A stretch of 37,205 nt of DNA from an uncultured Thermomicrobiales bacterium (GTDB taxonomy: Bacteria > Chloroflexota > Chloroflexia > Thermomicrobiales > UBA6265), in assembly GCA_902806325.1 (NCBI GenBank), contig CADCWE010000064.1, positions 1 to 37,205 on the forward strand, read 5' to 3'. Position numbers and translations under genes: made by a program. How positions within the stretch are numbered: position 1 is the stretch's first letter; the number at the start of each line of letters is the position of its first letter. Shown in pieces: positions 22,682-26,591 of this stretch. The notes beneath the pieces are model-generated. The model was given only the letters and a program-made list of their open reading frames with translations, made no database searches and had not been told where the DNA came from.

Positions 22682-23341
22682 ATGGAGCGGGGCACGGGCG
22701 CGGTCGATCGCCGCCAACTGGCGAAGGAGCAGCCGCCAAAGATCGGAAGATGGCCGCGGACGGACCGCCGCGCCGCCCGGATCGAGCGGGTGCTGGCGCG
22801 GCGGCAGCCGGACCTGGCGGTGGTGCTGGAGAACGTCCACGACGCGCACAACGTCGGCGCGGTGCTGCGCTCCTGCGACGCGGTCGGGGTGCCGGCCATC
22901 CACCTCGTCTACACCGACGAGGTCGTCCCCGACGCGGCGTTCGCCCGCTCGACGACGGCCGGGGCGGCGAAGTGGGTCGAGGTGGTGCGCCACGCCTCCG
23001 CGGCCGAGTGCTTCGCCCAACTCCGGGCGGAGGGGAAGACGATCCTGGTGGCGGCGTTGACCGCGGAGAGCGCCGGGTTCTACGACCAGGATCTGCGGCG
23101 GCCGACGGCGCTGGTCTTCGGCAACGAGACGCGCGGCGTGACGGAGGGGACGATGGCCCGGGCCGACGGCGCGGTCGTGCTGCCGATGATGGGGATGGTC
23201 GAGAGCCTCAACATCTCGGTGGCGGTCGCGGTGGCGCTGTTCGAGGCGCTGCGGCAGCGGCTGGCGGGTGGGGACTACGCGGAGCCGAAGTGGTCGGAGG
23301 AGGAGCGGGCGGCGATGATGGGGGAGTGGCTACGGCGGTGA
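22682..23341 (+). CDS. trmH: tRNA/rRNA 2'-O-methyltransferase of the SpoU/TrmH family
   Basis: The SPOUT enzyme transfers a methyl group from S-adenosylmethionine to a ribose 2'-hydroxyl. TrmH itself modifies G18 of tRNA. The 219-residue protein has all three SpoU motifs: NVGAVLRSCDAVG with the catalytic Arg, TALVFGNETRGVTEG, and VLPMMGMVESLNISVAVAVA with the knot Asn. A short basic N-terminal region and a C-terminal helix ending SEEERAAMMGEWLRR match TrmH in length and layout, so TrmH is favoured over RlmB-type paralogues. ATG 22682 follows GGAGGT. The gene is divergent from the sugar operon across 243 bases with no other feature noticed. Confidence 0.85.
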   Translation: MERGTGAVDRRQLAKEQPPKIGRWPRTDRRAARIERVLARRQPDLAVVLENVHDAHNVGAVLRSCDAVGVPAIHLVYTDEVVPDAAFARSTTAGAAKWVEVVRHASAAECFAQLRAEGKTILVAALTAESAGFYDQDLRRPTALVFGNETRGVTEGTMARADGAVVLPMMGMVESLNISVAVAVALFEALRQRLAGGDYAEPKWSEEERAAMMGEWLRR

Positions 23342-23364
23342 CGTCGACCCTGGGCGAACACCGG

Positions 23365-23865
23365 CTATCCACGCGACTTCGTCTCGTTCCCCTCCCCGTC
23401 CCCAACGTCGTATCCCCGCTCCCCGTTCGCGGGCCGGAAGCGATACTCGAACCAGCCGAGGGCGGACAGGACGACGAAGGTGGCGGCGGTGCCGGCGAAC
23501 GCGGCAACGTAGAACCCGGCACCGACGAGCAGGCCGACGGCGGCGGTGACCCAGATTCCGGCGGCGGTGGTCAGGCCCATGATCTTGCCGCCGGCGGAGA
23601 GGATCGCGCCGCCGGCGAGGAAGCCGATCCCCTGGACCACGGTCGAGGCGATGCGGGAGGGGTCGTAGGGGTCACCGGTGGCGCGGACCTGCTCGCCGAG
23701 CAGGATCGAGCCGATCATGAACAGGGCGGCGCCTTCGGCGACCAGGGCGTAGGTGCGCAGGCCGGCGGGTTTGTTGCTCCGCTCGCGCTCGAAGCCGAGC
23801 GCGGCGCCGAAGACGAGCGCGACGACGATGCGCTCGACGACTTCGAGTTCGGTCAGGGTGTCCAT
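23365..23865 (-). CDS. MgtC/SapB family membrane protein
   Basis: The 166-residue membrane protein has about five helices. Its opening LTELEVVERIVVALVFGAALGFERER is the MgtC hallmark, followed by PAGLRTYALVAEGAALFMI and ASTVVQGIGFLAGGAILSAGGKIMGLTTAAGIWVTAAVG. In other bacteria MgtC-type proteins help survival at low magnesium and modulate phosphate or ATP homeostasis. The short form here lacks the C-terminal ACT-like domain of virulence MgtC. It converges on trmH with only 23 bases between stops. Confidence 0.9.
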   Translation of the reverse strand: MDTLTELEVVERIVVALVFGAALGFERERSNKPAGLRTYALVAEGAALFMIGSILLGEQVRATGDPYDPSRIASTVVQGIGFLAGGAILSAGGKIMGLTTAAGIWVTAAVGLLVGAGFYVAAFAGTAATFVVLSALGWFEYRFRPANGERGYDVGDGEGNETKSRG

Positions 23866-23892
23866 CGGGGGTGGACCTCGTTGGCAGACGGT

Positions 23893-23965
23893 CCCTCACC
23901 CCGGCCCTGGGAGCCACCCCTCTCCCGCGCATTGGGAGAGGGGACCTGAAAGCCTTGCCTGAGGG
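23893..23965 (+). repeat. Dispersed CCCTCTCCC/GGGAGAGGG hairpin repeat (copy 3)
   Basis: The inner arms CCCCTCTCCC (23917-23926) and GGGAGAGGGG (23934-23943) are enclosed by outer CCCTCA (23893-23898) and TGAGGG (23960-23965). The repeat lies between the glutaredoxin-PDZ stop (23988) and the MgtC-family start (23865), on the downstream side of the first. Confidence 0.7.
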
Positions 23966-23987
23966 TGCTGCGGGAATGCGGAGCCGA

Positions 23988-24563
23988 TCAGAACTGCAAG
24001 GTTGCCGTTTGGTCTTCGCCGCCGCGCAGGAAGCGGACCGAGACGGCGTCACCGGCGGCGAGGGTGCCGATCAGTTGGTCCATGGTCGCCATGCCGCGGA
24101 CGCGCTTCCCGGCCAGAGCGACGACGACATCGCCGGGGCGAATGCCGGCCCGGTCGGCGACGGTGTCCGGGCGGACCGCGCCGACGAAGACGCCCTTGGT
24201 GTCCGGCGGCAAGGTGGCGGCGGCTTCGGGATGGCGCGCCAGGTACGATTCGGCGTCGGCGCCGAGGAGGCCGAGCGCGGGCCGCTTCGGCCCGGACAGC
24301 CGCTCGGCAAGTCGGGCGAGGGCGACCTGGTCGAAGCCGAGGATGACCTCGGAATCGGTCGCGACCACCGGCACGCCCTGCTGGCCAGAGCGTCGGATCA
24401 TTTCCATCGCCGCCGCCATGTCTTGGGCGACGTCTTTCTCGACAAACGGCACGTTGTGGGAGCGAAGGAACTCCTTCGCGCGATCGCACCAGGGTCAGGT
24501 CTTGGTGGTGTAGACGGTGACCTGGGGGGCGGACGGGCCGGTCGTCGGAATCGGGGCGGTCAT
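23988..24563 (-). CDS. Candidate selenoprotein: glutaredoxin-PDZ fusion with UGA at the active site
   Basis: Read straight through one UGA, this frame gives a 191-residue protein. Residues 14-90 are a glutaredoxin domain: VTVYTTKT, then codon 23 = UGA, then P24-W25-C26, then the helix DRAKEFLRSHNVPF, the cis-proline loop GQQGVPVV (Pro65) and ILGFDQVALARLAERL. The UGA replaces exactly the first Cys of CPWC. Residues 115-190 form a PDZ domain (GVFVGAVRPDTVADRAGIRPGDVVVAL). ATG 24563 follows AGGAG. A stem-loop fitting the bacterial SECIS rules lies just downstream of the UGA. The likely role is a thiol/selenol redox protein whose PDZ domain binds a partner. Alternatives are a nonsense mutation or sequence error (TGC to TGA). 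Confidence 0.82.
24462..24479 (-). promoter_or_regulatory. bSECIS-like stem-loop after the in-frame UGA
   Basis: On the mRNA, GCGAAGG pairs perfectly with CCUUCGC around an AGUU loop. The UGA is at 24495-24497, and 22 nucleotides separate it from the loop. Bacterial SECIS elements need a stem with a G in the first two loop positions, 16-37 nucleotides after the UGA. All are met, with G second in the loop. It lies inside the coding sequence, as bacterial SECIS elements do. Confidence 0.65.
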
Positions 24564-24630
24564 GGGGGCTCCTGGGATGTTCGGTAAGCGAGCGGTTCGA
24601 TTGCTGGCGAAATGATAGCAGGGGTGGATT

Positions 24631-24680
24631 GGCGCGGTGGGACGAGGGCGCGATGCATCGCGCCCTCGTCCCACCGCGCC
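24631..24680. repeat. Perfect 50-bp palindrome
   Basis: The 25 bases 24631-24655 are the exact reverse complement of 24656-24680, with no spacer (centre GATGCATC). It lies between the DtxR-family regulator stop (24706) and the glutaredoxin-PDZ start (24563). No T-run follows on the minus strand. It could end the metal operon transcript, insulate the selenoprotein gene, or be a dispersed palindromic repeat. Confidence 0.8.
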
Positions 24681-24705
24681 GGGTTCTGGCGACGGTCGGC
24701 CGGTC

Positions 24706-25425
24706 CTACGGCGCGACCTCCCGCTCGACATGCACCGTCCCCGCCAACGGCCGCCCGAGGACGAACTCCCCGCCTTCGGTGCGCACCCGGACCGGGCCAT
24801 CGAACGGCAGGGTCTCGATCAGCTCGATGGCCACGCCGGGGAAGAGACCGAGTTCGCCGAGGTAGCGCAGTTGGGCCGGGTCGCGGTCGGAGACGCGGGC
24901 GATCGCGGCGCGTTCGCCGGGGGCGAGGTCGAGGAGGCGGGTCTCGGGAACCGGGGCGAGGACGCCCTCGCGGCTGGGGATCGGGTCGCCGTGGGGGTCG
25001 ACCGTCGGGTGCCCAAGGGCGGAGTCGAGGCGCGCTTCCAGCGCGTCCGAAAGATGGTGTTCCAGGCGCTCGGCTTCGGCGTGGACCTCGTCCCAGGAGT
25101 AGCCGAGGGTCTCGGAAAGGTAGAGCTCCAGGAGGCGGTGGTGGCGCAGCACCTCGAGCGCGATCTTCTCCCCGGCCGGGGTCAGCCGGACACCGTGGTA
25201 GGGGGTGTGTGCGAGCATTCTTAGCTCGTTGAGGCGCTTGACCATATTGGTCACCGACGGGCCGGAGATGCCGAGTTCGTCGGCCAGGCGCTGGGTCGTC
25301 ACCGTGCCGCCTTCCTGCTCCAAGCGGAAGGCGGCTTTCAGGTAGTCCTCCATCGCGTGGGTGATCCGGGGCGTGGTCTCACCGGCGGCGGTGTTGGGGC
25401 GTTTCGCGGCCGGGGAGGTGGGCAT
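24706..25425 (-). CDS. DtxR/MntR-family metal-dependent repressor with FeoA-type C-domain
   Basis: The 239-residue regulator has three parts. A winged helix (about 20-80) holds MEDYLKAAFRLEQEGG, TQRLADELGISGPSVTNMVKRL and HGVRLTPAGEKIA. A metal-binding dimerisation domain (about 85-150) holds LRHHRLLELYLSETLGYSWDEVHAEAERLEHHLSD. A C-terminal SH3/FeoA-like domain follows (ARVSDRDPAQLRYLGELGLFPG). Such proteins bind DNA when loaded with Fe(II) or Mn(II) and repress uptake genes. It is the last gene of the metal ABC operon (74 bases after the second permease), so it very probably controls that operon. Which metal it senses cannot be decided. ATG 25425 has AAGGA upstream. Confidence 0.93.
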   Translation of the reverse strand: MPTSPAAKRPNTAAGETTPRITHAMEDYLKAAFRLEQEGGTVTTQRLADELGISGPSVTNMVKRLNELRMLAHTPYHGVRLTPAGEKIALEVLRHHRLLELYLSETLGYSWDEVHAEAERLEHHLSDALEARLDSALGHPTVDPHGDPIPSREGVLAPVPETRLLDLAPGERAAIARVSDRDPAQLRYLGELGLFPGVAIELIETLPFDGPVRVRTEGGEFVLGRPLAGTVHVEREVAP

Positions 25426-25499
25426 CCTGGGTCCTTTTCATCGTTGGCGCTGGCGCGGACGGCGGCGTTGGCGTCCCGGGCGGTCGACGGCGATGGGGG

Positions 25500-26591
25500 C
25501 TATCCGGCGGCGACGTCGCGCGCGGCGCCGCGGCCTTGCTCGGTCAACGTGTAGGCGCCGCTGGTGGTTTCCCGGACCAGACCATCACGGACGGCGCCAC
25601 GGGTGACGGCGGCGGCGGTGCGGGCGTTCCAGAGGAAGCGGCAGCGGAGGGTGGCGAGGTCGGCGCTGCCATGATGGCCTTCCAGGTGGGAGAGCAGCAG
25701 GCCGCGGGCGAAGACCCGACGGAGGTGGCGCAGCCGCAGCAGCCGGGCCACCAGCCCGTGCAGGGGCGAGAGCAGGAAGGCGGCGACGAAGAGCAGCCCG
25801 GCCACCGTCGCCATCGCCCCGGCGATCGAGCCGTCGATGCTCCTGGCCAGCCAGTAGCCACCGACCGCCGACGCCGCCCCGGTCCCGACGGCGAGCGCGA
25901 ACATCGTCGTCAGGCGGTCGGTCAGCAGGTAGGCGGTGGACGGGGGTACGATCAGCATCGCGACCACCAGGATCGCGCCGACGCTGTCGAAGGCGACGAC
26001 GGTGGTGGCCGAAACGGCGGCCATCAGCCCGTAGTGGATCACGACCGGCGAAAAGCCGATCGCGGCGGCCAGCCCAGGGTCGAACGTGGCCAGTTTCAGT
26101 TCCTTGTAGAACAGCCCGACGAAGAGCAGGTCGAGCGCCGCCATGATCCCCAGCATCCAGAAGGAGCGGTAACCGAGGTCCAGCCCGAACAGTTCGAACC
26201 GGTAGAACGGGGCGTAGGCGATTTCCCCATACAAGACGTGCTCGACGTCGAGGTGGACCCGGCTCGGAAATCGGGAAACGAAGATGACCCCGAGCGAGAA
26301 CAGCGCCGGGAAGACGAGGCCGATCGCGGCGTCCTCGCGCACCCGGCCGGTGCGATTGATCAGCTCGACCAGCGAGACGGTCAGCAGACCAACCGCCCCT
26401 GCCCCGAGGACCATCAGCAGCGCCGACCGGCCGCCGGTGAAGAAGAATACGCCGACGATGCCGAGCAGGACGCTGTGGCTGATTGCATCGCCGAGCAACG
26501 CCATCCGGCGCAGGACCAGGAAGCAGCCGACCAAGGCACACGACGCCCCGACGAGGACGCCCGTGATGATGACGACGAGTTCGCTGCTCAT
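25500..26591 (-). CDS. Metal ABC transporter permease with C-terminal winged-helix-like tail
   Basis: The 363-residue ABC-3 family (Mn/Zn/Fe) permease has about eight helices over the first 280 residues, including VLVGASCALVGCFLVLRRMALLGDAISHSVLLG and FDSVGAILVVAMLIVPPSTAYLL, both family signatures. Its C-terminal 80 residues are soluble and resemble a winged helix (LATLRCRFLWNARTAAAVTRGAVRDGLV, then YTLTEQGRGAA), which normal ABC-3 permeases lack. ATG 26591 overlaps the stop of the upstream permease by four bases (ATGA), showing tight coupling. The two permeases probably form a heterodimeric channel fed by the lipoprotein. Confidence 0.92.
   Translation of the reverse strand: MSSELVVIITGVLVGASCALVGCFLVLRRMALLGDAISHSVLLGIVGVFFFTGGRSALLMVLGAGAVGLLTVSLVELINRTGRVREDAAIGLVFPALFSLGVIFVSRFPSRVHLDVEHVLYGEIAYAPFYRFELFGLDLGYRSFWMLGIMAALDLLFVGLFYKELKLATFDPGLAAAIGFSPVVIHYGLMAAVSATTVVAFDSVGAILVVAMLIVPPSTAYLLTDRLTTMFALAVGTGAASAVGGYWLARSIDGSIAGAMATVAGLLFVAAFLLSPLHGLVARLLRLRHLRRVFARGLLLSHLEGHHGSADLATLRCRFLWNARTAAAVTRGAVRDGLVRETTSGAYTLTEQGRGAARDVAAG

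Follow-up and report, generated by a model that had tools for sequence, protein, structure and literature searches.

The minus strand of the window, by which we mean the whole 37,205-nt stretch of Thermomicrobiales DNA analysed here (contig CADCWE010000064.1), carries a gene for a glutaredoxin joined to a PDZ domain, in which a TGA replaces the first cysteine of the glutaredoxin motif CPWC, predicting UPWC (Table 1). Between its ATG at 24563 and its stop at 23990-23988, the reading frame has a single inner stop, the TGA at 24497-24495 (codon 23), and translation agrees in this with the original prediction, which was made from the letters of this DNA alone and placed the interruption at exactly this cysteine. 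The terminator of the gene is a TGA too, such that UGA would have two meanings, selenocysteine (Sec) and stop, inside one gene. UGA also terminates three of the nine open reading frames checked in the window and is, as had been claimed, a normal stop there. Upstream of the gene lie ffh, the genes of a ZnuA-type metal ABC system, and one for a DtxR-type regulator; downstream are an MgtC gene and a convergent gene for a SpoU methylase.

Table 1. Features of the glutaredoxin-PDZ locus, in positions of the window
Feature	Position	Strand	Basis
MgtC-family gene, directly downstream	23365..23865	-	PF02308; same neighbour in 15/19 family genomes
Predicted Sec-glutaredoxin/PDZ fusion gene, 191 aa	23988..24563	-	Translation, Pfam, orthologues
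HtrA/DegP-like PDZ domain, residues 120-189	23997..24206	-	PF13180/PF17820/PF00595; DegP and HtrA PDZ matches
Glutaredoxin domain, residues 15-74	24342..24521	-	PF00462
bSECIS-like hairpin: 7-bp stem GCGAAGG/CCTTCGC, loop AGTT	24462..24479	-	Sequence; compensatory changes in TGA members, absent from Cys members
TGA as predicted selenocysteine, residue 23, position 1 of UPWC	24495..24497	-	TGA 49, TGC/TGT 23 among 72 genes, including this one
AGGAG, ribosome-binding-site-like, 5 nt 5' of ATG	24569..24573	-	Sequence

Translated through the TGA, the protein matches the Pfam families Glutaredoxin (PF00462; residues 15-74, 66.5 bits against a cut-off of 22.9) and PDZ_2 (PF13180; residues 120-189, 45.1 bits against a cut-off of 27), which bears out the two domains that had been recognised around the TGA, and Pfam finds both domains in all seven of the more distant members tested. 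With the glutaredoxin domain above the Pfam cut-off and the predicted Sec at the first residue of CxxC, the protein classifies as a Sec-glutaredoxin (PF00462, UxxC). No signal peptide was evident by eye, and the protein is therefore presumed to be cytoplasmic. Its predicted structure has a mean pLDDT of 79.5 and a pTM of 0.58, with residues 65-74, from the VP-motif Pro onward, at a pLDDT below 50, for which reason we drew no active-site geometry from the model; a fold search with this model returned Deg/HtrA-type entries, i.e., matches to the PDZ half, as the best 50 matches listed.

Beginning 15 nt past the UGA, the message can form a perfect stem (GCGAAGG with CCUUCGC) closed by an AGUU loop, which lies 22 nt past the UGA and has a G at position 2. 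The rules for bacterial SECIS elements (bSECIS), as given in PMC13188914, specify a loop of 3-9 nt with a G within loop positions 1-2, an upper stem of 4-16 bp, a UGA-to-loop distance of 16-37 nt, and an MFE of <= -7.5 kcal/mol. Set against these published criteria, the hairpin falls within them (a 4-nt loop, 7 bp, and 22 nt), and its MFE is -11.8 for a 27-nt local fold and -13.9 for a 48-nt fold. The hairpin is as the original prediction described it, yet equal ones are not rare: the two strands of the whole window contain 678 TGA trinucleotides, 13 of which are followed by a Watson-Crick stem of at least 7 bp at bSECIS spacing, and when G-U pairs are permitted, a 7-pair stem lies in range after 102 of the 678. 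Synonymous recoding that preserved the protein produced a comparable stem in 22 of 3000 trials, and the stability of the 48-nt fold is ordinary (z, -0.82). Given this z score and the 102 TGAs with a 7-pair stem, we dropped single-sequence folding as proof of a SECIS element; taken alone, the hairpin is weak, suggestive evidence.

What we regard as decisive for the Sec reading, judging from aligned sequences, is the comparison with relatives. A nine-row search profile, built from this gene and eight relatives, matched 34 of the 158 genomes from its class and 67 of 400 genomes sampled phylum-wide. The class set comprised 34 of 37 places, the three omitted being glutaredoxin-only (two in G065 and one in G066), and the phylum set of 68 places added 38, six being already in the class set and the 24 left out all being glutaredoxin-only spans with no inner stop counted. 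Among the resulting 72 Chloroflexota genes examined, the active-site codon is TGA in 49 (from 49 genomes) and TGC/TGT in 23; relatives thus have either Cys or TGA at exactly the column for which the original prediction expected Cys or Sec. The TGA members lie mostly beyond this class (30 of 49, in other classes of the phylum) and include seven genomes of one genus (g102) that are single contigs of about 1.7-2.1 Mb, and the protein is conserved among relatives on both flanks of the TGA. An in-frame UGA aligned with Cys or Sec in homologues is expected of a bacterial selenoprotein gene and is seen here.

Other stop codons were also considered as a route to Sec (TAG in G489 and G086, TAA in G419, and a TGA in G277) and were excluded; the first active-site codon is TGT in G489 and in G419 and TGC in G277. 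The genome G086 has, beside a Sec copy elsewhere, a second glutaredoxin-PDZ copy of the Cys type (L119, G086:C3:255374-255889), whose TAG stands between the glutaredoxin and PDZ halves and makes the domains appear as separate genes.

The hairpin follows the codon. Of the 49 TGA genes, 47 have, 22-23 nt past the UGA, a stem of at least 6 contiguous pairs whose loop has a G at its first or second position, and no Cys gene has one (n = 23): 45 TGA genes form 6 to 9 contiguous pairs in either of two fixed registers, two further ones have 7 pairs and a 5-nt loop, and the last two (G137 and L175) have one stem mismatch each, the synonymous control for G137 being unsupportive (2642 of 3000). At the hairpin site, the Cys genes reach at most 4 pairs (n = 23), and three of them have a 6-pair stem (G-U allowed) farther downstream. 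Covariation, computed on distinct sequences, was found in both registers. In that of this gene, 12 of 21 sequences have G-C and 9 have T-A at pair 20/33, and pairs 23/30 and 19/34 have one double change each; in the second, which is offset by one base and occurs where a TCN serine codon comes after Leu, pair 25/29 is A-T in 17, G-C in 7, C-G in 2, and A-C in 2 and pair 19/35 is T-A in 12, C-G in 10, and unpaired in 6 (n = 28 for both). In the first register 145 of 147 cells are paired and in the second 212 of 224, and with the partner shifted by 1-3 columns the counts fall to 55-87 and 89-154, respectively; in the Cys genes, 87 of 154 and 81 of 176 of the identical cells are paired. Within the family of this genome, a change from Arg CGC to Ser AGC is accompanied by a silent change in an Ala codon that restores the pair.

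A protein tree of 34 rows, built after masking of the Sec column, requires eight changes of the Sec/Cys label, at least five of which are forced by well-supported branches. The hairpin label was assigned by hand (1 for every Sec row except G137 and 0 for every Cys row), and among five independent contrasts, the hairpin accompanies Sec in an average of 4.9, with none in the opposite direction (p, 0.0625; a sign test on five pairs cannot reach 0.05). This contrast is in agreement with a coupling of hairpin and Sec, on a sample too small for significance. From the TGA/Cys column and the hairpin in relatives, which strongly support what the original prediction proposed, we conclude that the TGA at 24497-24495 is almost certainly read as Sec and that the gene is a selenoprotein gene; the Sec codon, the SECIS hairpin, and the exchange of Sec for Cys all emerge from comparison of sequences, as does the presence of selA, selB, and selD described below.

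The genome encodes SelA (409 bits), SelB (312 bits, with SelB-wing_2 and SelB-wing_3 domains), and SelD (366 bits). Its own selD has an in-frame TGA near the N terminus (L061, oriented position 1531, contig C27), and SelD itself appears to be a selenoprotein. Of the four sel genes that the original prediction proposed to look for, these three are present, and the fourth, selC, was not detected in the assembly. With RF01852, the best match for tRNA-Sec in the assembly scores 41 bits against a cut-off of 47, and all eight candidates (<= 41 bits) are ordinary tRNAs according to ARAGORN run on the candidate loci; a relative's selC used as a DNA query against the assembly found no selC (best E, 0.05), and ARAGORN detected no tRNA-Sec in the window or near selA, selB, and selD of this genome. 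The assembly, in 273 contigs, has a completeness rating of 93.6%. A clear tRNA-Sec (at least 53.8 bits) is present in 13 of the 19 Sec-type genomes of the class, the six others being this genome, G137, G138, G139, G148, and G152. The best match in G138, which is rated 98% complete, is 84 nt long and, at 47.8 bits, barely above the cut-off of 47; it resembles matches of 83-84 nt that are also present in genomes with a clear selC.

ARAGORN identified a tRNA-Sec with anticodon TCA on all seven family contigs fetched for that purpose. In five of these seven genomes (L096-L102), selC is preceded, at a distance of 52 to 1285 nt and on the same strand, by a large gene, which has a fragmented frame in one of them and is RecQ-like in the one tested. 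In this genome, the match to the RecQ-like gene lies on the minus strand of contig C185 (3602 bases) and stops at base 9, short of the last 75 of the 1108 query residues, and because the RecQ-like gene that precedes selC in five of seven relatives runs off the contig here, selC is expected past the end of C185. A second RecQ-like homologue in this genome (L107, G000:C147:14888-16384) has one TGA and one TAG in the matched stretch. Among the 32 genomes of the class that have the family, a SelB wing domain occurs in all 19 of the Sec type and in 10 of the 13 with Cys only. Sec machinery accordingly fails as a predictor of Sec versus Cys, and because SelB is present in so many Cys-only genomes, we take the machinery to permit Sec and not to dictate it.

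Were the TGA instead a real stop, introduced by a sequencing error or by decay of a pseudogene, the frame downstream would be a remnant or a separate PDZ gene. The fragmented assembly, the failure to detect selC in it, and the other TGAs that end genes in the window would suit such an account, but the recurrence of TGA at the same codon in 49 genomes, seven of them single contig, with both flanks conserved as protein, speaks against it, as does the near-perfect partition of the hairpin between TGA and Cys genes. A read error is very unlikely because 48 other genomes have TGA at this codon, and we consider a genuine stop highly improbable. Nor do we find it credible, to about the same degree, that a suppressor tRNA decodes the UGA as cysteine or another residue. 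Cysteine is indeed the residue in homologues that lack the TGA, and no selC was detected in this assembly; yet a hairpin that is linked to the UGA and obeys the bSECIS rules would then be superfluous, SelB, SelA, and a TGA-containing SelD are all present, tRNA-Sec with the matching anticodon was recovered from every family contig fetched, and UGA terminates other genes and this gene as well.

A different proposal accepts the Sec protein as real and ties its role to metal homeostasis through the upstream metal ABC-DtxR operon and the downstream MgtC; the original prediction had already placed the gene next to a metal-uptake operon. The DtxR-type regulator, which has a C-terminal FeoA domain (24706-25425, minus strand), lies 3' of the metal ABC transporter genes, and its gene ends 142 nt upstream of the glutaredoxin-PDZ gene on the same strand. 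The operon is complete and in the same order upstream of the gene in 2 of 19 family genomes (this one and G151), and it is partial in two more, G149 having a dtxR-type gene alone between ffh and the glutaredoxin gene and G137 having a distant ZnuA-type gene upstream (30% identity). The conserved neighbour on the other side argues in the same direction, since MgtC proteins are linked to Mg2+ limitation. The context does not hold throughout the family, however, given that 15 of the 19 genomes have no upstream match to ZnuA or DtxR (several contigs reach only 0.8-3 kb there), and 9 of the 19 have upstream instead a gene that, recognised by eye, we take to be GMP synthase. In this genome, moreover, dtxR and the glutaredoxin gene are separated by a perfect 25-bp inverted repeat without a spacer (24631-24680; 50 bases, G+C-rich), and a terminator scan of 23300-25500 found no terminator-like site. 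Elsewhere in the neighbourhood, the SpoU gene is downstream in 16 of the 19 family genomes, and ffh is upstream in 9, this one included. In 20 loci of more distant genomes, no match was obtained to MgtC, SpoU, GuaA, Ffh, ZnuA, or DtxR. A link to metal homeostasis may thus exist within the family, without being shared by the set as a whole; as the role of the protein, we consider it unlikely.

The selenoprotein reading suggests the following course of events. SelB would bring Sec-tRNA(Sec) to the UGA at 24497-24495, guided by the hairpin downstream, and Sec would be inserted as the nucleophile of the UPWC active site. In UxxC glutaredoxins, the selenol(ate) is the nucleophile that attacks disulfides or mixed disulfides. 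We infer that the protein is translated in the cell and is redox active and that it most likely functions as a client-directed selenol oxidoreductase: the C-terminal HtrA-type PDZ domain may bring chosen clients, in the form of exposed C termini or hydrophobic peptides, to the selenol, where client disulfides or low-molecular-weight-thiol adducts would be reduced efficiently. The addressing of clients by the PDZ domain is the more tentative part, to which we assign somewhat less than an even chance. The broader proposition, that these proteins constitute an undescribed, phylum-wide class of Chloroflexota selenoproteins in which an HtrA-type PDZ domain addresses the glutaredoxin selenol to clients and in which Sec was repeatedly exchanged for Cys with the SECIS hairpin lost in step, seems to us evenly balanced.

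Automatic annotation would probably end such a gene at the UGA, so that a peptide of 22 residues and a PDZ fragment lacking its glutaredoxin head would remain. Through this family, the Sec-glutaredoxins gain a further domain layout, which suggests a selenol enzyme equipped with a client-binding module of its own. Several switches between Sec and Cys, with the hairpin present or absent alongside, amount to a natural experiment on why a lineage keeps Sec, and with seven single-contig genomes of one genus in the set, cultured species may be testable.

Sec-glutaredoxin is a listed family of bacterial selenoproteins (PMC13188914, PMC1088965, and PMC1794560), with which the protein described here shares both the domain (PF00462) and the position of Sec (UxxC). 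The listings consulted give PF00462 or the name only, whereas a PDZ domain is fused here, in this protein as well as in the seven distant members. We found no description of a glutaredoxin-PDZ selenoprotein in the literature searched, which lay mostly outside subscription journals and included passages of PMC13188914, PMC9312934, PMC1088965, PMC1794560, PMC2398784, PMC4918011, and PMC5736913; term searches of PMC12013277 and PMC5029168 gave no match. The selenoproteins named in a Dehalogenimonas genome paper include SelD and formate dehydrogenase, and the main text does not contain the word "glutaredoxin" (PMC4918011). The PDZ-fused layout of a Sec-glutaredoxin seems to be undescribed so far.

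Among the closest known families is NCBIfam NF041199, the Trx7/PDZ domain-containing (seleno)protein (CxxU), by its name a selenoprotein too, with a thioredoxin-type and a PDZ domain, but it is a 390-position model with CxxU, and the glutaredoxin-PDZ protein scores 30.6 against its cut-off of 300, through the PDZ part only, and is not a member. The best NCBIfam matches of the glutaredoxin domain are TIGR02196 (YruB-family glutaredoxin; 87.7 bits against a cut-off of 88.55) and NF041212 (Uxx-star; 59.1 bits against a cut-off of 66), models of 74 and 70 positions that are too short for a PDZ domain. This protein falls under both cut-offs and outside Uxx-star; among three distant members, two exceed the TIGR02196 cut-off and all stay below that of NF041212 (65.0, 55.5, and 52.7). 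The nearest solved glutaredoxin sequences, 7c10/7c12 and Grx3 1fov (profile positions 5-78 and 6-72), are chains of 82-84 residues with no PDZ domain, and the glutaredoxin half most resembles YruB-type and small bacterial glutaredoxins. The nearest PDZ domains are those of HtrA/DegP (DegP by sequence and, by fold, the HtrA PDZ domain 7l71, with a TM-score of 0.80 by target), and unlike HtrA/DegP, the glutaredoxin-PDZ protein has no protease domain. Sec-glutaredoxins were already known; what seems new here is the domain layout, which extends beyond this class.
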